64,000 nucleotides of DNA from assembly GCA_019695295.1 (NCBI GenBank), contig JAIBAH010000001.1:62001-126000 (forward strand). Reading direction: 5' to 3'. Positions 47,127 through 59,342 of the stretch are shown one piece after another. Numbering within the stretch: position 1 is the stretch's first letter; each line of letters begins with the position of its first letter. The notes below the pieces were generated by a model. That model made no database searches. It saw only the letters and a program-made list of their open reading frames with translations, and had not been told where the DNA came from. The DNA comes from Bacteroidia bacterium. Its GTDB lineage: Bacteria > Bacteroidota > Bacteroidia > J057. Made by a program: the position numbers and the translations under genes.

Positions 47127-47504
47127 ATGAAATTTTTAATTGTAGATGATGAAAAAGACGTAGAAATCATGTTTCGGCAAAAATTAAGAAAGGAAATCCG
47201 AAATGGTGATTTAGCGTTAGCGTTTGCTTTCTCAGGAATGGAAGCACTCAACATGCTGCGCAATCAAACCCCTCCTGATATTATGTATATTTTCTCTGAT
47301 ATTAATATGCCCGGGATGTCGGGAATTGATTTATTAGAAACAGTAAAAAGTGAATTCCCTGAAATTAGGGTAAGTATGATTTCGGCTTACGGCGATGATG
47401 AAAACTATACAAAAGCCATCAATTCCGGCGCAAATGGTTTTTTTACAAAACCCATTGATTTTGATAGTTTAAAAAAAGAAATCAATGAGATTCTCATGGG
47501 TTAA
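47127..47504 (+). CDS. Single-domain response regulator, copy 1
   Basis: A 125-residue CheY-like receiver with no output domain. The phosphorylation site is Asp58 (SDINMPGMSG), with the acidic pocket Asp7/Asp8, Ser86 and Lys108 all present. It differs from copy 2 by only three residues (Thr48, Thr72 and Asp91 here; Ile, Lys and Asn there). It lies 48 bases ahead of a histidine kinase that presumably phosphorylates it. Without an output domain it must work through protein contacts or as a phosphate sink. It also resembles the receiver of the cyclase at 56820. Confidence 0.92.
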   Translation: MKFLIVDDEKDVEIMFRQKLRKEIRNGDLALAFAFSGMEALNMLRNQTPPDIMYIFSDINMPGMSGIDLLETVKSEFPEIRVSMISAYGDDENYTKAINSGANGFFTKPIDFDSLKKEINEILMG

Positions 47505-47552
47505 TCCCGATTCTGTTATTTCCTTCACTTCATTCACTTACTTTAAATATTG

Positions 47553-49748
47553 ATGAGATTATTACTTCCTGTCCTGCTTATCCTTTGTTTTTCTGCTCTG
47601 GCACAAAAGAGTGAATTTTTTACAATTGATAGTATCCCCAAACAGGGAGTTCTCCTCGACAAGGGGTGGAAATATCAAGAGGGAGACAATATGCAATGGG
47701 CAAAACCCGACTTTAATGACTCTGGCTGGGCTTCTGTTGACCCACTGAAAGAAATCACCTCCTATCCGGAAATATTAGGCTCAACTGTATTCTGGCTGAG
47801 ATTAGAGGTGGATGTAACCCAAAAATCCCCCCGTCCTCTGGGACTTGCCATTAATCAGGCGGGTGCTTCTGAAATTTATGTCAATGGGATATTGGTACAT
47901 GAATTCGGCACCTTTGATACAGACCCGCGCAACGTCAAAGCCTATGATCCTATTGAACATCCGATATTCATTCCTTTTGACTCCGCAGGCCACTATATTT
48001 TAGCGGTACGATATGCCATTCAGCCTGATTTGAGATATACCAGGATATTTGCATACAATAAAAATCGTGTCTTTTATGCCAAAGTGGTGGATTTAGTGAA
48101 AACATCCAACACTGACAGGGCAGTTACACTATATAAATTTGGACTGGATATCGTAACACTGGGTTTTTATCTTATGCTTTTTGTGCTTCATTTTGCTTAT
48201 ATTATTTATCAAAGAAAAAACAGAATTCAATGGCTACTGACTATTTATTTCAGTATAGGAGCCTGTATAAGAGTGTTTAAAATTATAGGGCAGAATGAAT
48301 CCTTCCTGGCCGAAAGATTTATTTATCTGAATCTGTCCAATATCTGCCTTGCTATCTCGGCAGTGTGCCTGAGTATTATCATTTACCGGATGGCCAGGAT
48401 GCGTTTTGATATTTATCTCTATCTAGTATGGTTTTTACAATTCATTTATTGTATAGTTTCTTATGGGACATCAGCGGAAGACTGGCAAACAAAACTATTG
48501 TTATTGTTTAATATCTATAACTTAGCCATTGTAATCCGGGTAGTTAGATTGGGCATAAAAAAAGGTATAAAAGGCTTTCAGACAGTTTTATACGGTATAT
48601 TTATTGCCATTTTAGGATTATTAGTACTTAGTACCGGGTTTCAGTTTCTTAATTATGGGCACTCTTCTACGGGGCTCAATGAATTACGATTGGGTGTTTC
48701 TACTTACCTCATAGATTTTATTGCCTTGATTGGCGGTATATCTATCCCTGTTGGGTTATCTTTGTTTATGGGTATTCAAAGCCGGGAGACTAACTTAGCA
48801 TTAAGCAAACAACTAAATGAAAATGAAATGCTGAAAAATAAAGCAATTGAGCAGGAACAGGAGAAACAGCAAATCCTCGAATCTCAGAAAGAAATGCTGG
48901 AAATTCAGGTAAATGAAAGAACGGCTCAGTTAAATCAATCGCTCGAAAATCTCAAAGCTACGCAAAATCAACTCATTCAATCCGAAAAGCTGGCTTCGCT
49001 GGGGGAACTTACCGCAGGCATTGCCCACGAAATCCAAAACCCCCTCAACTTTGTGAATAACTTCAGTGAACTAAGCAACGAATTGATTGATGAAGTACTG
49101 GAAGAAAGAAAAAAAGACGAAGAAGAAAGGGATGAATCGCTTGAAAATGAAATTTTAGCGGATTTAAAGCAAAATTTAACCAAGATCCATCATCACGGCA
49201 AACGGGCTTCCAATATTATAAGGGGAATGTTGCAACACAGCCGAAAAAGCTCCGATGTAAAAGAATTAACCGATATCAATGCATTATGTGATGAATATCT
49301 CCGGCTTTCCTATCATGGATTAAGGGCAAAAGACAAATCCTTTAACGCCAGTTTTGAAACGCATTTTGACCCCAGCCTGCCAAAAACTGAAGTCATAACC
49401 CAGGATATAGGCAGGGTCATACTCAACCTCATCAACAATGCCTTTTATGCAGTGAATGAGAAACGCAAAAAAGGAGAGCCCGGTTATATCCCAACTGTCA
49501 CTGTCTCCACTCTCCTTACAGACTCAAAGCACTTTCAAATCAAGATACAGGACAATGGTTTGGGAATACCCGAGCACATTAAAGAAAAAATTTTTCAGCC
49601 CTTTTTCACTACCAAACCCTCCGGACAAGGTACAGGATTAGGGCTGAGTCTGGCTTATGATATCATTACAAAAGGGCATGGTGGGACATTAGAAGTAAAT
49701 AGTACTGAAGGCGCTGGCGCTGACTTTATAATACAGATACCCATCTGA
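47553..49748 (+). CDS. 7TM sensor histidine kinase, copy 1
   Basis: 731 residues: a signal peptide, an extracytoplasmic galactose-binding-like beta sandwich (about 30-185; FNDSGW, VNGILVHEFG), seven membrane helices (about 195-410), a coiled-coil signalling helix (415-480), a HisKA domain with phospho-acceptor His492 (GIAHEIQNPLNF) and an HATPase domain (N box, DNGLGIP, GTGLGLSL). I use ATG 47553 rather than the TTG directly before it. The first 58 residues are almost identical to the kinase at 50644, then the sensor diverges. It probably senses an external ligand and phosphorylates the neighbouring receiver. Confidence 0.92.
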   Translation: MRLLLPVLLILCFSALAQKSEFFTIDSIPKQGVLLDKGWKYQEGDNMQWAKPDFNDSGWASVDPLKEITSYPEILGSTVFWLRLEVDVTQKSPRPLGLAINQAGASEIYVNGILVHEFGTFDTDPRNVKAYDPIEHPIFIPFDSAGHYILAVRYAIQPDLRYTRIFAYNKNRVFYAKVVDLVKTSNTDRAVTLYKFGLDIVTLGFYLMLFVLHFAYIIYQRKNRIQWLLTIYFSIGACIRVFKIIGQNESFLAERFIYLNLSNICLAISAVCLSIIIYRMARMRFDIYLYLVWFLQFIYCIVSYGTSAEDWQTKLLLLFNIYNLAIVIRVVRLGIKKGIKGFQTVLYGIFIAILGLLVLSTGFQFLNYGHSSTGLNELRLGVSTYLIDFIALIGGISIPVGLSLFMGIQSRETNLALSKQLNENEMLKNKAIEQEQEKQQILESQKEMLEIQVNERTAQLNQSLENLKATQNQLIQSEKLASLGELTAGIAHEIQNPLNFVNNFSELSNELIDEVLEERKKDEEERDESLENEILADLKQNLTKIHHHGKRASNIIRGMLQHSRKSSDVKELTDINALCDEYLRLSYHGLRAKDKSFNASFETHFDPSLPKTEVITQDIGRVILNLINNAFYAVNEKRKKGEPGYIPTVTVSTLLTDSKHFQIKIQDNGLGIPEHIKEKIFQPFFTTKPSGQGTGLGLSLAYDIITKGHGGTLEVNSTEGAGADFIIQIPI

Positions 49749-50217: not shown

Positions 50218-50595
50218 ATGAAATTTTTAATTGTAGATGATGAAAAAGACGTAGAAATCATGTTTCGGCAAAAATTAAGAAAGGAAATCCGAAATGGTGA
50301 TTTAGCGTTAGCGTTTGCTTTCTCAGGAATGGAAGCACTCAACATGCTGCGCAATCAAATCCCTCCTGATATTATGTATATTTTCTCTGATATTAATATG
50401 CCCGGGATGTCGGGAATTGATTTATTGGAGAAAGTAAAAAGTGAATTCCCTGAAATTAGGGTGAGTATGATTTCGGCTTACGGCGATAATGAAAACTATA
50501 CAAAAGCCATCAATTCCGGCGCAAATGGTTTTTTTACAAAACCCATTGATTTTGATAGTTTAAAAAAAGAAATCAATGAGATTCTCATGGGTTAA
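50218..50595 (+). CDS. Single-domain response regulator, copy 2
   Basis: A 125-residue receiver, 122 of 125 residues identical to copy 1, with the same Asp58 acceptor and pocket residues. The three changes lie away from the acceptor, though Asp91 to Asn is near the switch region after Ser86. It is 48 bases ahead of kinase 2 and starts the run of genes ending with the HD-YitT fusion at 59342. Sharing between the two kinases' receivers seems likely because both receivers have almost the same surface. Confidence 0.92.
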   Translation: MKFLIVDDEKDVEIMFRQKLRKEIRNGDLALAFAFSGMEALNMLRNQIPPDIMYIFSDINMPGMSGIDLLEKVKSEFPEIRVSMISAYGDNENYTKAINSGANGFFTKPIDFDSLKKEINEILMG

Positions 50596-50643
50596 TCCCG
50601 ACTCTGTTATTTCCTTCACTTCATTCACTTACTTTAAATATTG

Positions 50644-52851
50644 ATGAGATTATTACTTCCTGTCCTGCTTATCCTTTGTTTTTCTGCTCTGGCACAAAAG
50701 AGTGAGTTTTTTACGATTGATAGTATCCCCAAACAGGGAGTTCTCCTCGACAAGGGCTGGAAATATCAAGAGGGAGACAATATAGAATGGGCAAAACCCG
50801 ACTTTAATGACTCGAATTGGGCTTCTATAGACCCTACAAAAGAATTATCGTTGCTGCCAGAGGTATTCAATCATCAGGTAAAATGGCTGCGAATCCAATT
50901 TGAGATAAGAGATACACTCCCGGAAATAGCAGGAATTGCCGTCAATCAGGCGGGAGCTTCTGAGGTCTATCTCAATGGCAGATTAATCCGGCGTTTCGGT
51001 AATTTTGACCTCAATCCGGACAAGGTTATTGCTTACGACCCACTGGAGTACGCTGTTCATTTTCCGCTGGACACTGTCGGCCGCTATACTTTAGCCGTGC
51101 GCTATGCCTTGCAACCCGGTATCAGATATACTGAAATTTTCACTTTGACAAAAAACCGGTTGTTTAATGCCACTTTAGTCAATCTAAGTGCTGCAACCGA
51201 GGAGCAGAGGTCATTCAGAATGTTTTATATAAGCACTGATATTTTTAAAATCGGGCTTTTTTTCATATTACTTATACTTCATTTTGCCCATTATTTATTC
51301 CATCGGCAGAATAAAACCCATTTCTACCTGGCTATCTATTTATTGGCAAATCTCCTTGTTTATGCCTTTAAACTGACAGGACAGAATATTACTTCCGTAG
51401 AATACCGGTATTTTGCGCTCAACCTTTCTATTGCACTATATACAGTTGGGCTGATAAGTACCGTTGTGGTCTTTTACCGGTTAGCAAAAGTGCCTCTGGA
51501 TTTGTATTTCTATTTACTGGTAGTATATTCAGTAGTGCAGGTGCTGGTTACCAGCCTGACTTATGGCGAAATTCCGTGGCATATACTTCTCACGCTGATA
51601 AGCTCAATCGTGAGTTCCGCAATCTTTATCCGGCTCATCCGTACAGGATTAAAAAAGAAAATCAAGGGTTTTTGGACCCTGGCAACGACCATTATGATTG
51701 CCTTGCTTTGCTTGTTGTTGGTTACTACAGCGATGATTTCCTGGAACTTTGGCTTTGCGACACTGGGTTATAAAGTGATGAACAACGGTATGTCACCCTA
51801 TTTTATAGAGGCGATTTTTGCTCTTGGGGGCATTTCTATCCCCATAGGTTTATCGCTTTTTATGGGAGTAGAAGGCAGAGAAACAAACCGGGCATTAAGC
51901 AGACAACTGAGTGAAAATGAAATCCTGAAAAACAAAGCGATTGAGCAGGAGCAGGAAAAACAGCAAATACTCGAATCTCAAAAAGAAATGCTGGAAATTC
52001 AGGTAGTTGAAAGAACCGCTCAGTTAAATCAATCGCTTGAAAATCTCAAAGCCACCCAGTCCCAACTTATTCAAGCCGAAAAAATGGCCTCCCTCGGAGA
52101 ACTTACCGCAGGAATTGCCCACGAAATTCAAAATCCTCTCAACTTTGTGAATAATTTCTCAGAGTTAAGTATGGAGCTGATAAATGATATAAAAACTGAG
52201 TTGAAAAACCCTGAAACAGACAAAGGATATATTAATGAATTATTTGAAGATCTGAATACGAATCAGGAAAAGATTCATCATCATGGCAAACGGGCTTCCA
52301 ATATTGTAAAAGGAATGCTTCAGCATAGCAGGAAAGGTACAGAGCAAAAAGAATTAACCGATATCAATGCGTTATGCGATGAGTATTTCAGGCTGGCTTA
52401 TCACGGACTCAGAGCCAGGGATAAATCTTTTAATTCAGACATGAAAACAGATTTTGACCTTTCCGTTGGCTCTCTCAAAATCCATTCGCAGGATATAGGC
52501 AGAGCAATTCTTAACATCATTACCAATGCTTTTCATGCTGTAATGGAGAAAAAAAGGGAGAACCTTCCTGGCTATCAGCCAATCGTTCTGGTAAAGACAA
52601 AAAAGGAAAACAATCAGGTACTGATTTCTATCAGTGACAACGGATTTGGAATTCCCAATCACATCAGAGAGAAAATTTTCCAGCCGTTTTTCACTACAAA
52701 ACCCACCGGAGAAGGAACAGGATTAGGGTTGAGTTTAGCATATGATATTATTACAAAAGGACACGGAGGAACAATAGAAGTAAATAGTACTGAAGGAATT
52801 GGTACTGAGTTTATTATTACTTTTCCAATTCAGTCAGTTACTTTAACTTAA
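50644..52851 (+). CDS. 7TM sensor histidine kinase, copy 2
   Basis: 735 residues with the same plan as the kinase at 47553: signal peptide, galactose-binding-like sandwich (VNQAGASEVYLNG), seven helices (about 195-412), coiled coil, HisKA with His493 and HATPase (DNGFGIP, GTGLGLSL). Identity to copy 1 is nearly complete over the first 58 residues, much lower through the sensor and helices, and high again in the coiled coil and HisKA. This mosaic suggests that sensor and catalytic parts have evolved at different rates or by exchange. The next kinase starts 7 bases downstream. Confidence 0.92.
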   Translation: MRLLLPVLLILCFSALAQKSEFFTIDSIPKQGVLLDKGWKYQEGDNIEWAKPDFNDSNWASIDPTKELSLLPEVFNHQVKWLRIQFEIRDTLPEIAGIAVNQAGASEVYLNGRLIRRFGNFDLNPDKVIAYDPLEYAVHFPLDTVGRYTLAVRYALQPGIRYTEIFTLTKNRLFNATLVNLSAATEEQRSFRMFYISTDIFKIGLFFILLILHFAHYLFHRQNKTHFYLAIYLLANLLVYAFKLTGQNITSVEYRYFALNLSIALYTVGLISTVVVFYRLAKVPLDLYFYLLVVYSVVQVLVTSLTYGEIPWHILLTLISSIVSSAIFIRLIRTGLKKKIKGFWTLATTIMIALLCLLLVTTAMISWNFGFATLGYKVMNNGMSPYFIEAIFALGGISIPIGLSLFMGVEGRETNRALSRQLSENEILKNKAIEQEQEKQQILESQKEMLEIQVVERTAQLNQSLENLKATQSQLIQAEKMASLGELTAGIAHEIQNPLNFVNNFSELSMELINDIKTELKNPETDKGYINELFEDLNTNQEKIHHHGKRASNIVKGMLQHSRKGTEQKELTDINALCDEYFRLAYHGLRARDKSFNSDMKTDFDLSVGSLKIHSQDIGRAILNIITNAFHAVMEKKRENLPGYQPIVLVKTKKENNQVLISISDNGFGIPNHIREKIFQPFFTTKPTGEGTGLGLSLAYDIITKGHGGTIEVNSTEGIGTEFIITFPIQSVTLT

Positions 52852-52858
52852 TGAAACA

Positions 52859-54964
52859 ATGGTAAATAAATTCAGGACAGTTATACTTCGTAAATATATT
52901 TTTCTCCTTTTCTCATTGCTTTTATTCTTTACCAGAACAGAAGCAAATGACACCTTATTTTATACCGACCCTCTTACGATTGTGGACATTGCACAATATG
53001 TTCAAATCTACAAAGACCCAACCAATGCCGTAAGTTTTGAACAGATAAAAAACTTCCCTGATACCGCTTTTGAAAAATCGAAGAACTTCCCATTGAGTTT
53101 TGGCAATACCAAATCCAGTATCTGGTTGAAATTTAGCGTTAAAAACCAAACTTCAGCGCCCGTTTTTCTTGGTTTTGGCAGTAATGCGTTAAAAATTATT
53201 GATGTTTTTATTTATGATGAATCGGGCATGCTCACCCAAAGGCAGTCCGGGAGTGACCGCCCTACAAACAGCCGCGATTTGCAACGCAGCAACGTTGTAT
53301 TAAATATCGGGCAATCGCCCCAACTCATTTACATTAAAATGGAAAGTCGGTATAGTTTGCGACTGCCCCTCACATTATCTCTTATAGCACCCTTAAATGA
53401 CATCTATCACAAGCGGGATGTCATCAATGGGCTATGTTTAGGGATTCTCTTAGCGATGGCACTGTACAATCTGTTCATTTTTTTCTTTATCAGAGACCGT
53501 TTGTATTTATACTATTGCTTGTATGTGCTTTCTGGCATTCTGGTATTTTCGCATATCAATGGTTTGTGGTACTTAGTCCGGACAAATAACTATTATATCA
53601 ATCATTTTCTGGGGTTACAATTACTGATGATTTCCTCCGTGTTGTTTTCTGCTCGTTTTTTGAATCTGAAACAAAATATGCCCCGTGTATATATCGCTTT
53701 TATATTTCTGAGCATAATTCTCATCATTGACATTCCATTTGACCTTTTCTTTATTCCTTTTTTTACAAACTATATTGTGCAAATTATCCCCCCCTTCTTA
53801 GCCATTTCGCTTTTGATAATCGGTATAATAGCGCATGTTCAAGGAAATAAAAGTGCAAAATATTATGTGCTTGCCTGGGGGTTCTATTTTGTAGGGGGAA
53901 TTATTTCAGCATTGAGCCATGAGGGGCTTTTGCCCCATAACTTTTTCACCTTAATCTCTTTACAGGTAGGGGCTTGTATTGAGTGTATTTTACTGGGCTT
54001 TGCTATGGCGAACAGAATTAATACTTATCGGGAAGAGTCGGCACAGGCCCAAGCGTTAGCCTTAAAACGACTACAGGAAAACGAAACTTTAATCAAGGAG
54101 CAAAGCAGAGTACTGGAAGAAATGGTGAGTGCACGCACTGTTGAACTGGAGACCTCCCTTGAGATGCTTAAAACCACACAGACACAGCTCATACATTCTG
54201 AAAAAATGGCCTCTCTCGGAGAGCTTACCGCAGGCATTGCCCACGAAATCCAGAATCCGTTAAATTTTGTTAATAATTTTTCTGATTTAAGTATTGGGCT
54301 TGTAAGTGAAATACAGGAAGAAATGCAAAAACCTCAGACAGACGAACCCTATATCAAAGAATTGTTTGATGATTTGAGTAAAAATCAGGGCAAAATCAAT
54401 CATCATGGCAAAAGGGCTTCCAATATCGTAAAAGGAATGTTGCAACACAGCCGGAAAGGCACTGCTCAAAAGGAACTGACAGACATCAATAACTTATGCG
54501 ATGAGTATTTCAGACTGGCTTATCATGGGCTCAGAGCCAAAGACAAGTCCTTTAATGCCGAAATGAAAACGGACTTTGACCCTGCTACCGGAACGCTTAA
54601 CATCAATTCACAGGACGTTGGAAGGGTGTTTCTGAATATCATTACCAATGCTTTTCATGCTGTAATGGAAAAATCCAGAAAGAATATTTCCGGTTATCAG
54701 CCAGGGGTTTGGGTGCAGACCCAAAAGACAGACAACCACATTGTAATTTCTATACATGATAATGGGGCAGGAATACCTGACTCGATAAAAGATAAAATTT
54801 TTCAGCCATTCTTCACTACAAAACAAAGAGGAGAAGGAACCGGCTTAGGGCTTTCCCTTTCTTATGATATTATTGTCAAAGGGCATAATGGAAACATTGA
54901 TGTAAAATCCGTGGAAGGAGAAGGCACCGAATTCATTATTACAATACCATATAACAATTTTTAA
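52859..54964 (+). CDS. 7TMR-DISM sensor histidine kinase
   Basis: 701 residues with a different sensor: an N-terminal anchor or signal, a DISMED2-type extracellular domain (about 35-180; a SSIWLKFSVKN strand), a 7TMR-DISM membrane unit (about 190-390), a coiled coil, then HisKA with His462 and an HATPase domain. The core is close to kinases 1 and 2 (ASLGELTAGIAHEIQNPLNF, GKRASNIVKGMLQHSRKGT). It probably detects a different ligand from kinases 1 and 2 but could act on the same receivers. It lies 7 bases after kinase 2 and 9 before the patatin gene, so they share a transcript. Confidence 0.92.
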   Translation: MVNKFRTVILRKYIFLLFSLLLFFTRTEANDTLFYTDPLTIVDIAQYVQIYKDPTNAVSFEQIKNFPDTAFEKSKNFPLSFGNTKSSIWLKFSVKNQTSAPVFLGFGSNALKIIDVFIYDESGMLTQRQSGSDRPTNSRDLQRSNVVLNIGQSPQLIYIKMESRYSLRLPLTLSLIAPLNDIYHKRDVINGLCLGILLAMALYNLFIFFFIRDRLYLYYCLYVLSGILVFSHINGLWYLVRTNNYYINHFLGLQLLMISSVLFSARFLNLKQNMPRVYIAFIFLSIILIIDIPFDLFFIPFFTNYIVQIIPPFLAISLLIIGIIAHVQGNKSAKYYVLAWGFYFVGGIISALSHEGLLPHNFFTLISLQVGACIECILLGFAMANRINTYREESAQAQALALKRLQENETLIKEQSRVLEEMVSARTVELETSLEMLKTTQTQLIHSEKMASLGELTAGIAHEIQNPLNFVNNFSDLSIGLVSEIQEEMQKPQTDEPYIKELFDDLSKNQGKINHHGKRASNIVKGMLQHSRKGTAQKELTDINNLCDEYFRLAYHGLRAKDKSFNAEMKTDFDPATGTLNINSQDVGRVFLNIITNAFHAVMEKSRKNISGYQPGVWVQTQKTDNHIVISIHDNGAGIPDSIKDKIFQPFFTTKQRGEGTGLGLSLSYDIIVKGHNGNIDVKSVEGEGTEFIITIPYNNF

Positions 54965-54973
54965 TATAATACC

Positions 54974-56749
54974 ATGAAAAATAATCCCGGCTCAGAAAGA
55001 AAATGGTTGAGTGTGCTTGCTAAACTTTTTGAAAGTTTGGATGAAAACTTGTTGAGACAGATATTGGAAAAAGGAAAAATACTGGAATTTAATACCGGAG
55101 AAACTATCTTTAAACAGGGGGACACCGAAAAAAACTTTTTTATAGTACTATCAGGACGGTTCAGGGCTGTGGCTGAAACAAATAATAAAATGAAAGTCCT
55201 GGGTGATATTACAGAAGGTGAGCCTGTGGGTGAGTTTGCTCTTTTTACGGGAGCAGCCCGCTCGGCTACAGTGTATGCAATGCGCCCTTCTGTCACTCTG
55301 GAGCTATCCGAATCAGAATACCTCGATTTAGTGGGGTTACAACCTGCATTTGCACAAAAAATGACCTCCATAATCTTAAACAGGCTTAAGAGCAACAGTT
55401 TACAGAAAAAGATAAATGACGCGCCCAAAAACATCGCTTTAATCAATCTTCAGGAAAGTCATGAAATCACCCCATGGACAGAACTTATTGAAAAAGAATT
55501 CAATAAAACTAATGTGGCATACCAAAAATTAGATTATGACGCGTATAAAAATGAAGACCCCAATTCTTTTTTTCAAAAACTGGAATCCAGCGATGATATG
55601 AAGTTTTTTGTTTGCAGCAGCGAGCATTCAGAATGGTCAAAACAATGTTATGCTTACTCTGACTTGATTGTAATTGCAGCTGAATTTAACAGTGATTGCG
55701 AAATACATGCGCTGGAAAAAGAGCTGGAGCTTTACAAAGACAATTTATTGCATAAAAAAGTGTACCTGCTTTTACTGCATCCCGAAAATGCCCCGAATCC
55801 GGTTAATACAATCCGGTGGCTTGAAAAAAGAAATATTGACTTACATATTCATTTCAGAAAAGACCATGCAAACGATGTGGCAAGATTTTGCAGAATCATC
55901 ACCAACAGAGCAATAGGGCTGGTATTGAGCGGGGGCGGCGCAAAGGGGTATGCCCACATCGGCGCTGTGAAAGCCCTGATGGAAAGCGGGATTCAGATTG
56001 ATTTTCTGGGTGGAACAAGTGCAGGAGCATTGTATGGTTTAACAATGGTAAGCCAGGACTTTCAATTTGAAAAAATAAACTTCTACGCAAAAGATTCTGC
56101 AGGAAAGAGGCTCACTTCCAACGATTATACCGTTCCTGTAATATCACTATTAACCGGCAAAAAACTGAAGTCGTATCTGCAAAAAATGCTGGGAGAGATT
56201 TGCCTTGAGGACTTGTGGATTTCAAGTTATTGTATCACTACTAACTTTTCCACGGCATCCCTTTCCATGCATGAAACCGGATTGGTTTACCAGAAAGTGC
56301 TTGCGAGTATTGCTATTCCCGGGGTCTTCCCTCCTGTAATCATAGACGGTGAGCTGCACGTAGATGGTGGTGTAATGGACAATTTGCCGATTCAGTCCAT
56401 GTACAAATACCCTGTTAGTCATATCATTGCCCTTTCTCTTTCGAGTACCACGCAACGAAAATTCGAGATCCGGGAAACTCCTTCCAACAAGGAATTATTC
56501 TGGGACAAGTTGCTGAAAAGAAAGAAATACAGAATGCCGGGGCTGAGCTCATTGATTATCAATTCTCTGACACTCAACAGTGTGCAAAAACAAGAACAAC
56601 ATAAAGCGAATGTCTCTGTTTATCTGGAACTGAATCTCAAGGGATTTGGGTTTTTAGATGATAGTAAATGGAAACAAATTATCCAGAGCGGGTATGATCA
56701 GATGAAAGATTATCTCAATACGTTAAATTCAACAGAAAAATTTTGGTAA
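54974..56749 (+). CDS. Cyclic-nucleotide-binding patatin-like phospholipase (NTE type)
   Basis: 591 residues. A cyclic-nucleotide-binding domain (about 15-140) has the phosphate-binding cassette GEFALFTGAARSA (86-98) with its Arg96. A middle domain (150-310) resembles the linker of NTE-like proteins. The patatin domain (313-490) has the oxyanion loop SGGGAKG (319-325), GTSAG with Ser349 and DGG with Asp464, so both catalytic residues are intact. No signal peptide is visible. The likely model is a lipid hydrolase controlled by cAMP from the cyclase encoded next. NTE-family enzymes act on phospholipids and lysophospholipids. Confidence 0.9.
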   Translation: MKNNPGSERKWLSVLAKLFESLDENLLRQILEKGKILEFNTGETIFKQGDTEKNFFIVLSGRFRAVAETNNKMKVLGDITEGEPVGEFALFTGAARSATVYAMRPSVTLELSESEYLDLVGLQPAFAQKMTSIILNRLKSNSLQKKINDAPKNIALINLQESHEITPWTELIEKEFNKTNVAYQKLDYDAYKNEDPNSFFQKLESSDDMKFFVCSSEHSEWSKQCYAYSDLIVIAAEFNSDCEIHALEKELELYKDNLLHKKVYLLLLHPENAPNPVNTIRWLEKRNIDLHIHFRKDHANDVARFCRIITNRAIGLVLSGGGAKGYAHIGAVKALMESGIQIDFLGGTSAGALYGLTMVSQDFQFEKINFYAKDSAGKRLTSNDYTVPVISLLTGKKLKSYLQKMLGEICLEDLWISSYCITTNFSTASLSMHETGLVYQKVLASIAIPGVFPPVIIDGELHVDGGVMDNLPIQSMYKYPVSHIIALSLSSTTQRKFEIRETPSNKELFWDKLLKRKKYRMPGLSSLIINSLTLNSVQKQEQHKANVSVYLELNLKGFGFLDDSKWKQIIQSGYDQMKDYLNTLNSTEKFW

Positions 56750-56819
56750 TTAGTTGTAACTTTGACGCTGATTTTACAGTTTTGTGTATCGTACAGAAAG
56801 TTTACATAATTTCTTTAGC

Positions 56820-57851
56820 ATGATAAAAATATTGGTAGCGGATGATGAGCCCGACATGGAAGCATTAATCCGGCAAAGGTTCAGGCAAAAAATACGAGAA
56901 AACGAATACGAATTTGTTTTCGCAGAAAATGGCAGAATTGCACTGGAGCATTTGAGAGCACACAATGACTTCGATATCGTACTGAGCGATATTAATATGC
57001 CTGAAATGGACGGACTGACTTTATTAAATAAGGTTTGTGAAGAACTCCCTTTGATTAAATCTGTCATTATCTCTGCTTATGGCGATATAGAAAATATCAG
57101 GGTTGCGATGAACAACGGTGCTTTTGACTTTATTACCAAACCCGTGAATTTTCTGGACCTGGAAAAAACTCTGGAAAAAACCATCTTGAGTGTAAATCAT
57201 ATAAAGAAAACACTTCAGGCAATCAAAGAAAATGATATTCTCCGTATGTATGTGGATGAAAATGTGCTGAACTTCATGAATTCAAGAGCCTATACCGAGT
57301 CGCTGACCGAAAATGAAAATATTGAAGCTACTGTAGCTTTTATTGATATTTGTGGATTTACGGCTATTAGTGAAAAACAATCTCCCAATATTGTCGTACA
57401 TCACCTCAACCAGTATTTTGATGTAATGGTCAGAGATATTATTGCACATGACGGAATCGTGGACAAGTTTATCGGGGATTGTATTATGGCCGTATTCAAG
57501 GGCGAATATCACCTCGACAAAGGAATAGAAGCCTGTCTGGATATAAAAAAATCCCTGGCGGCCCTGCCCGATGATGAATTGTTTTCGCCCAAAGTATCAA
57601 TAGGAATTAATAGTGGAGAAATGGTTTCGGGCAATATCGGTTCTGCTACTTTGAGAAGGCTGGACTTTACGGTCATCGGTGATACCGTTAATACTGCGCA
57701 AAGGATACAAAGTATTGCTCAGCCCAACCAAATCCTTGTAAATCAAGACTGTTACGAAAAAATAAAAAAATCCTTTCAGTGTAATCGGATAGGTAGCTTT
57801 AAACTGAAAAACAAGGCTGCGGAAATTACCGTATATGAAATTTTATCTTAG
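56820..57851 (+). CDS. Receiver-adenylate cyclase (REC-class III cyclase)
   Basis: 343 residues: a receiver (1-125; Asp57 acceptor, Asp8/Asp9, Ser85, Lys107), a helical linker and a class III cyclase domain (about 165-343). Metal-binding Asp176 and Asp220, the substrate Lys216 (DKFIGD), Thr284 at the adenine-selecting position (FTVIGD), and the catalytic Asn291 and Arg295 (NTAQR) are all present. A Lys/Thr pair indicates ATP rather than GTP. ATG 56820 begins the conserved MIKILVADDE; the frame from 56784 adds 12 unsupported residues. Phosphorylation by the adjacent kinases probably sets its activity. Confidence 0.9.
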   Translation: MIKILVADDEPDMEALIRQRFRQKIRENEYEFVFAENGRIALEHLRAHNDFDIVLSDINMPEMDGLTLLNKVCEELPLIKSVIISAYGDIENIRVAMNNGAFDFITKPVNFLDLEKTLEKTILSVNHIKKTLQAIKENDILRMYVDENVLNFMNSRAYTESLTENENIEATVAFIDICGFTAISEKQSPNIVVHHLNQYFDVMVRDIIAHDGIVDKFIGDCIMAVFKGEYHLDKGIEACLDIKKSLAALPDDELFSPKVSIGINSGEMVSGNIGSATLRRLDFTVIGDTVNTAQRIQSIAQPNQILVNQDCYEKIKKSFQCNRIGSFKLKNKAAEITVYEILS

Positions 57852-57884: not shown

Positions 57885-59342
57885 ATGGATTATCAGTCAG
57901 CATACACTTTTATAATCAATAAATTAACGTACGAACTGCGTCCTGAATATAAGTATCACGACTGCAATCACACTCAAAGTGTGATAGAGTCTGCAGTATT
58001 GATTGCGGCTTCAGAAGGGATTACAAACGAACAGGATATCACAATCCTTAAAACCGCTGCTTTGTTTCATGATGTGGGTATGATTATAGGTTCGGAGAAT
58101 CATGAAGCAACCTCCTGTCAGTTTGCAAAAAAACATCTTCCGGAGTTTGGTTACGGTGAAGCACAGATTGAGCAGATTTGCAAAATGATAATGGCCACTA
58201 AAGTGCCTCAAAATCCCACAAATCAATTGTCAGAAATCCTGTGTGACGCTGATTTGTATTATCTCGGAACTGCTGACTACTATTCAAGAGCGCAGTTGCT
58301 GTATGAAGAATTCAAAACTGAAAATAAAATACAAAATCAGGAGCAGTGGATAGATATTCAAATCCGTTTTTTAACGGCTCACAATTACTTTACCAATACC
58401 GCCAGGAAACATGGAGATAATCAAAAGGCTAAGGTTCTACAGAATTTAAGATCTAAAGCTACAGCTTCTCATCCCCCAAAAAACAATTATTTCAAAAATA
58501 TTTCAGATATTATTTTAATTATTTTCGGGGTTAGTCTGGCGGCACTGGCTCTTAAAGGGTTCTTTGTTCCCAATCATTTTTTTGATGGAGGAATTACGGG
58601 TGTCAGTTTGCTTATGCATGAGCTGACCCACATCAATCTTGCCCTTGTATTGTTTGCATTCAACCTGCCTTTTATTATTGTCTCTTATTTTACTGTGGGT
58701 AAAACGTTTGCCTATAAAACGATGTTTGCAGCTGTTTTGCTGGGGCTTCTGATTACTATCATGCCGGATTTAAAATTCACTTCCGACAAGTTGCTCGTGG
58801 CTATTTTCGGAGGGGTTTTACTTGGAGTCGGGGTCGGGATTGTAATGCGGGCAGGCTCTGCATTGGACGGGATTGAGGTACTTGCGATGTACACATTAAA
58901 AAGGACTTCCTTTACGATTACCGAAATCATTATGGCAATCAATATCTGTATTTTCACAATTGCGGCCTTTAAATTTGGAATTGAAACTGCCTTATATTCC
59001 ATGCTTACATACTTCTGCGCAACCCGTACGATTGATTATGTGATTGAAGGAATTCAGGCCTATTTAGGGGTAACTATCGTATCTTCAAGCAGCGAGGAAA
59101 TCAAACATCTGCTGGTGGAAAATATGAGAAAAGGAATCACAGTTTATAAAGGCGAAAGAGGATATTTACCCAATCAGTTTGATCAGCATTCAGAATGCGA
59201 TATTCTGTTTACGGTCATCACAAGATTAGAATTACGGAAACTCAAAAATTTAATCCATGAATTAGACCCGCAAGCCTTTGTCTATGTAAGCTCCATCAAA
59301 GAAGCCGCTGGCGGTATCCTGAAAAGGGTAAGCGGACATTGA
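57885..59342 (+). CDS. HD-hydrolase/YitT/DUF2179 fusion membrane protein
   Basis: 485 residues. An N-terminal HD domain (about 1-185) has the metal ligands His25/His29 (YHDCNHT), His62-Asp63 (FHDVGM), His73 and Asp121/Asp123. It is followed by a YitT-family membrane domain (about 195-385; five or six helices, with FDGGITGVS and LDGIEVLAMY) and a C-terminal cytoplasmic DUF2179 domain (about 395-485; GITVYKGERGY). HD domains hydrolyse phosphoesters, including cyclic nucleotides. The YitT group is thought to be membrane transport- or sensing-related but is not well defined. It ends the signalling run, 33 bases after the cyclase; a role in removing its product is a hypothesis. Confidence 0.85.
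   Translation: MDYQSAYTFIINKLTYELRPEYKYHDCNHTQSVIESAVLIAASEGITNEQDITILKTAALFHDVGMIIGSENHEATSCQFAKKHLPEFGYGEAQIEQICKMIMATKVPQNPTNQLSEILCDADLYYLGTADYYSRAQLLYEEFKTENKIQNQEQWIDIQIRFLTAHNYFTNTARKHGDNQKAKVLQNLRSKATASHPPKNNYFKNISDIILIIFGVSLAALALKGFFVPNHFFDGGITGVSLLMHELTHINLALVLFAFNLPFIIVSYFTVGKTFAYKTMFAAVLLGLLITIMPDLKFTSDKLLVAIFGGVLLGVGVGIVMRAGSALDGIEVLAMYTLKRTSFTITEIIMAINICIFTIAAFKFGIETALYSMLTYFCATRTIDYVIEGIQAYLGVTIVSSSSEEIKHLLVENMRKGITVYKGERGYLPNQFDQHSECDILFTVITRLELRKLKNLIHELDPQAFVYVSSIKEAAGGILKRVSGH

Follow-up and report, generated by a model that had tools for sequence, protein, structure and literature searches.

An HD phosphohydrolase fused to a YitT-DUF2179 membrane protein is linked to class III cyclases in Bacteroidota and may end their signal

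We found that an HD phosphohydrolase of Bacteroidota, fused in a few genomes to a YitT-DUF2179 membrane protein, is associated with class III cyclases far beyond chance. We propose, with moderate confidence, that these components form a conserved cyclic-nucleotide (cNMP) module in this phylum, comprising a class III cyclase, an HD enzyme that probably cleaves cAMP, and a YitT-DUF2179 protein as the membrane partner. Cyclic-AMP signalling has been little mapped in Bacteroidota, and YitT/DUF2179 proteins are widespread. The HD enzyme is a good candidate for the missing cyclic AMP 'off switch' in these bacteria, and its linkage gives YitT a first signalling context; in the literature searched, we found no assigned function for YitT/DUF2179 proteins. 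The same literature, which included few subscription journals, held nothing on YitT with HD, on PycTM with HD or on a Bacteroidetes HD-type cAMP phosphodiesterase (PDE), and the papers retrieved for YitT and cyclase were, judged by their titles, not about such a link. Within that scope, the cyclase-HD-YitT module appears to be undescribed. The repeated fusions that join cyclase, HD and YitT in various ways lead to a directly testable prediction, in which the HD degrades the cyclic nucleotide and YitT is its membrane client. If the HD activity proves true, it would name a new phosphodiesterase family and provide the first functional handle on YitT.

The HD-YitT fusion and its gene row

Within the 64,000-nucleotide stretch of Bacteroidia DNA analyzed here (the window), a single open reading frame encodes an HD domain, a YitT membrane domain and a DUF2179 domain (Table 1). 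All three matches exceed the curated Pfam cut-offs, and the protein falls within the YitT/DUF2179 family at 197.4 bits (cut-off 24.3) and 52.3 bits (cut-off 22.8), while its H...HD...D metal motif and HD fold identify it as an HD superfamily hydrolase. Compared with the YitT/DUF2179 proteins of COG1284, which have the same two Pfam domains over their full length, the window protein adds the N-terminal hydrolase. The sequence-only reading of this DNA had described an HD domain joined N-terminally to YitT/DUF2179, a complete set of HD metal ligands and a position directly after a cyclase gene; all of this was borne out, with H29, H62-D63 and D123 as the ligands and a REC + class III cyclase gene immediately upstream on the same strand. 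In an AlphaFold2 model built from an alignment of 50 relatives (mean pLDDT 92.6, pTM 0.67), the individual domains are predicted with confidence and their placement relative to each other is not.

Table 1. Features of the HD-YitT-DUF2179 fusion and of the genes upstream of it (window positions)
Feature	Position	Strand	Remarks
Stand-alone response regulator	50218..50595	+	Pfam
Sensor histidine kinase	50641..52851	+	Pfam
Sensor histidine kinase with 7TMR-DISM receptor	52859..54964	+	Pfam
cNMP-binding + NTE P-loop-like + patatin phospholipase	54974..56749	+	Pfam; phosphate-binding cassette intact
REC + class III adenylate cyclase	56820..57851	+	Pfam (PF00072, PF00211)
HD-YitT-DUF2179 fusion ORF	57885-59342	+	485 aa, single ORF
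HD domain, residues 1-198	57885..58478	+	Pfam match residues 28-124, PF01966, 4e-7; model
H25-x3-H29 motif	57957..57971	+	H29 is a metal ligand; position of H25 matches the extra YpgQ active-site His
H62-D63 metal-binding doublet	58068..58073	+	Invariant, 67/67 sequences
D123, fourth metal ligand	58251..58253	+	Motif DADLxYLG; invariant
Q159-x-x-F162	58359..58370	+	Invariant in the cyclase/YitT-linked HD clade
YitT membrane domain, residues 208-410	58506..59114	+	PF02588 YitT_membrane, 2e-58; model
DUF2179 domain, residues 417-476	59133..59312	+	PF10035, 5e-14; predicted PII-like fold (Foldseek)

The fusion gene is the last of six genes in a row on the same strand, with gaps of 45, 7, 9, 70 and 33 nt between them; a gap of 268 nt follows at its 3' side, and then an unrelated YHYH protein. 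The GTG at 56784, listed as the start of the cyclase, probably lies too far upstream; with the ATG at 56820, the protein has 343 aa, near the length of its relatives. The cyclase motifs FIDICGFT, KFIGD and LDFTVIGDTVNTAQR are intact, and the protein keeps the metal aspartates, the adenylate-type K/D residues and the N/R transition-state residues. The patatin protein carries a canonical cyclic-nucleotide phosphate-binding cassette, GEFALFTGAARSATV, which makes it a candidate reader of the signal. PF00211 finds a single class III cyclase in the source genome, the one directly upstream of HD-YitT. The genome also has exactly one HD of this family, and of its nine cNMP-binding-domain proteins one is encoded in the row described here. 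A cyclic nucleotide is presumably both made and read in this organism. As for its removal, neither class I (PF00233) nor class II (PF02112) PDEs were matched in the source genome at E <= 1e-3, nor was a CpdA-type PDE (PRK11148 / NF008359) at E <= 1e-5; the assembly is 97.4% complete, so these absences are not absolute. Judged by such profile matches, the HD of the fusion is the only candidate eraser found there. Some relatives have a class II PDE (G401, G283, G120, G385 and G147), so the HD would not be the sole eraser everywhere.

Linkage of HD and YitT to class III cyclases

Full-length HD-YitT fusions occur in 5 of 395 genomes of the class, namely the source genome of the window and G085, G143, G401 and G385, the latter four proteins being 49-53% identical to that of the window; given these other cases, we rejected the idea that the fusion arose by chance or in the assembly. 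A class III cyclase gene adjoins the fusion in all five cases (the window, L080, L081, L082 and L083). The domain-architecture search that the sequence-only reading had called for thus did not reveal a common fusion unrelated to cyclases. In one further genome (G038), a stop splits HD and YitT into two adjacent genes in the same order. Among the 22 genomes of the window's own order there is no second fusion, and the relatives have YitT and HD as separate genes; a restriction of the fusion to this order is rejected by its presence in other families of the class. The HD-YitT fusion is therefore rare and recurrent.

From the neighborhoods of about 70 loci, we read several other wirings of the same components. 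More often than being fused, HD and YitT are separate neighbors beside a cassette of kinase, response regulator and REC-adenylate cyclase (L074, L090, L094, L096 and L098); at these five loci, of which L074 is from Cecembia rubra, and at L088, the cyclase, the HD and YitT each have a gene of their own, in either order. Elsewhere, the cyclase is fused to the HD, either with YitT as the next gene (L132 and L133) or without YitT and with propeller-receptor or other inputs as recognized by Pfam (L084, L087 and L070-L073). Genes that fuse repeatedly in this way are typically taken to act in a common function. A cyclase is missing from the neighborhood of some HD clade members (L089, L092, L095 and L146), and at two loci a YitT gene adjoins a cyclase without a neighboring HD (L130 and L131).

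To avoid circularity, the strength of this linkage was assessed on HDs chosen by HD similarity alone: 24 homologs from a phylum-wide search (E <= 1e-35), excluding the source genome and HD-PycTM fusions, with class III cyclases located independently of this sample. A class III cyclase lies within 2 kb of 11 of the 24 HDs, within 5 kb of 14 and within 12 kb of 19, compared with 0.06, 0.13 and 0.30 expected under uniform placement. The Poisson-binomial P is about 1e-27 at 5 kb, and a cyclase is present in 22 of the 22 genomes that hold the sampled HDs versus 196 of 396 overall (hypergeometric, 1e-7); both figures ignore the relatedness of the genomes and therefore overstate the significance. The linkage holds across several families (f9, f10, f13, f14 and f16).

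The HD active site

In the HD tree, a 100/100 branch splits 42 sequences, which contain every YitT-linked and cyclase-fused HD, from 25 others, which include all HD-PycTM proteins. H25, H29, H62-D63 and D123 are invariant in the 42 linked relatives, and the metal and catalytic-site residues are invariant in the 25 others as well. The linked clade has in addition an invariant DADLxYL, Q159-x-x-F162 and H166. Position 159 is Q throughout this clade and mostly N/T/S in the other, PycTM-linked clade, so that the Q159-x-x-F pattern is, in the sequences aligned, specific to the cyclase/YitT-linked HDs; as a hypothesis, Q159 might contact the base and contribute to purine recognition. The HD-PycTM proteins (PF18967) share a homologous HD and differ in their membrane domain, in their residues at positions 126 (H/N) and 159 (N/T/S), and in being seldom near a cyclase.

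The position of H25 also corresponds to that of the catalytic His of class I PDEs, and its role may be similar to that of the His in YpgQ and in these enzymes. Class I PDEs (PDEase_I) also share the pattern Y-H-(N/D)-x-x-H ... HD ... D with the fusion's HD, which at about 195 aa is smaller than their catalytic domain, and the profile similarity between them is sub-threshold: the PDEase_I profile (PF00233) matches 11 of 37 HD members, the window HD not among them, with a best E of 1.5e-4 that is below the cut-off, and an HD profile search reaches class I PDEs weakly. It is important to point out that a short YH-x3-H match is possible in any HD hydrolase, which limits the weight of the PDEase_I matches. 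The nearest solved folds found with Foldseek are 2pq7, 2pjq and YpgQ-ADP, with PDE5 lower in the list. YpgQ, an NTP/dNTP pyrophosphohydrolase and not a PDE, has H25, H29, H58, D59 and D124 as the counterparts of the fusion's H25 and metal set (PMC8177086). Although the YpgQ/2pq7-type phosphohydrolases have this ligand set (H29-HD-D and H25) in common with the fusion's HD, the latter differs from them in its linkage to cyclases and in its clade-invariant motifs. The H...HD...H...HH...D motif that defines the di- and trinuclear PDEs of the HD-GYP and PgpH kind (PMC8177086) is absent, only H73 being conserved between the HD doublet and D123, and an HD-GYP- or PgpH-like substrate was rejected on these missing histidines. 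Since the extra histidines are absent and the linked cyclase makes 3',5'-cyclic mononucleotides, c-di-AMP and (p)ppGpp seem less likely as substrates.

The YitT-DUF2179 part

The YitT part of the fusion is about 40-60% identical to stand-alone YitT proteins. In the YitT tree, 13 unlinked YitTs lie on one side of a 100/100 branch and the linked YitTs on the other. One row of this tree (L027_o) has a very long branch and an odd make-up, probably from a bad gene call, which leaves the 100/100 branch around the unlinked YitTs unaffected; the drawn root is meaningless. The YitTs linked to HD or cyclase thus form a separate group with residues of their own (E347, V411, L428 and E473). A Foldseek search with DUF2179 returned 3hlu first and then largely PII-like proteins, including SbtB, GlnK and PstA, at E values of about 0.01-0.05 that indicate similarity at the fold level only; a PII-like fold is accordingly predicted for the DUF2179 tail. 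None of the 50 best PDB hits matched the YitT membrane part.

A proposed cyclic-nucleotide module and its alternatives

The observed architecture, intact motifs, genomic linkage and recurrent fusions would fit a module whose core consists of a class III cyclase, controlled in the window by a response regulator, an HD phosphohydrolase and a YitT-DUF2179 membrane protein. In this module, the HD would hydrolyze the 3',5'-cyclic nucleotide of its partner cyclase, probably converting cAMP to AMP and thereby ending the signal. The off-step would be placed at the membrane through the YitT fusion or a neighboring YitT gene, with the HD either held at the membrane by YitT or acting on YitT. The PII-like DUF2179 tail may in turn sense the cyclic nucleotide or the AMP product and gate YitT as SbtB does SbtA, a step suggested by the example of SbtB, a sensor of cAMP versus AMP that binds to the transporter SbtA (PMC8352866). 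Both systems pair a PII-like cytosolic domain of the same fold class with a membrane protein, but DUF2179 is fused to YitT, and we saw no structural similarity between the YitT membrane part and SbtA. The row in the window, with two sensor kinases, a response regulator, a cyclase, a cNMP-patatin and an HD, may represent an input-maker-reader-eraser set. The HD reaction, its nucleotide, the direction of control, and the function and coupling of YitT are what we infer here. The sequence-only reading had already suggested a phosphodiesterase tied to the membrane, which would terminate the cAMP signal, or else the coupling of a signal to YitT activity; the rare fusions, the cyclase linkage and the cyclase-HD fusions argue for this idea, leaving its claims about activity, nucleotide and YitT role as suggestions. 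A more far-reaching version, which we put forward tentatively and would not expect to hold, is that the HDs of this clade make up a new bacterial family of 3',5'-cNMP PDEs and act as the main cAMP eraser in many Bacteroidota, with YitT as a cNMP-gated transporter and DUF2179 as a PII-like cAMP/AMP sensor.

The main rival to the PDE reading is that the HD is a nucleotide phosphohydrolase like YpgQ or YfbR (for example an NTP pyrophosphohydrolase or 5'-nucleotidase) that works beside the cyclase and, rather than cleaving the cyclic nucleotide, clears by-products or downstream AMP or tunes the nucleotide pool. Its best structural neighbors and its mononuclear H...HD...D site with H25 are consistent with this, and the homologs in his operons (L003 and L005) hint that this branch of the family acts on a nucleotide or sugar phosphate. 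Yet a housekeeping nucleotidase need not adjoin or fuse with class III cyclases, and the source genome is without another recognizable cAMP PDE. Since the fold alone does not separate a PDE from a nucleotide phosphohydrolase, the genomic linkage carries most weight, and we consider this rival unlikely, if still a serious contender. The notion that HD, YitT and cyclase are unrelated and neighbors by coincidence, as the HD and YitT paralogs without such neighbors might suggest, is scarcely credible given the co-location within 5 kb and the recurrent HD-YitT and HD-cyclase fusions.

It is also conceivable that catalysis is secondary and that the HD is a regulatory domain, binding a (cyclic) nucleotide, sensing the cyclase product and gating transport by YitT. 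The parallel HD-YitT and HD-PycTM fusions, which set related HDs on two different membrane modules, would suit such a role; the invariance of the metal and catalytic residues in both clades would be unexpected in a non-catalytic domain, however, and many HDs are stand-alone or fused to cyclases without YitT, which makes this improbable. We regard as more doubtful still an anti-phage defense of the Pycsar type, in which cyclase, cNMP-binding patatin effector and HD off-switch would work together. The PADLOC models for PycC and Pycsar effectors cross-match the cyclase and the cNMP-patatin, and a related HD occurs in the HD-PycTM proteins, but the cyclase is of the adenylate type and under REC/two-component control, and the module occurs across chromosomes together with kinase cassettes, the patatin being part of the window version only. 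The fusion itself matches no PADLOC model, and its membership in Pycsar was rejected.

Further observations

The gene for the cNMP-binding/NTE-P-loop/patatin protein shares its row with the genome's only cyclase and was not seen at the other HD-YitT loci; a cAMP-controlled phospholipase is a possible role for its product. Stand-alone HDs of the same clade as that of the fusion are located between hisB and hisH, within the histidine biosynthesis operon, in two relatives (L003:1486-2067 in G010 and L005:1495-2088 in G006), with no cyclase nearby and with the hisB and hisH names assigned by eye from the sequences. Bacteroidota proteins of about 420 aa fuse a related HD to the PycTM (Pycsar effector) membrane domain (L007-L016, L076, L077 and L151); these HD-PycTM proteins are widespread and mostly have no cyclase as a neighbor. 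An HD of the linked clade is also found at the C-terminus of proteins of about 860-880 aa, one with TPR repeats (L085:7387-9963) in a sensor-kinase cluster about 10.5 kb away from a cyclase, and the other (L086:9602-12241) encoded by a gene that adjoins a REC-cyclase. Finally, upstream in the window, a recent tandem duplication (47127-49748 versus 50218-52851) comprises a response regulator and the start of a sensor kinase gene. Over their initial 627 bases the two copies share 96.7% identity, whereas the greater part of the kinase gene has diverged.
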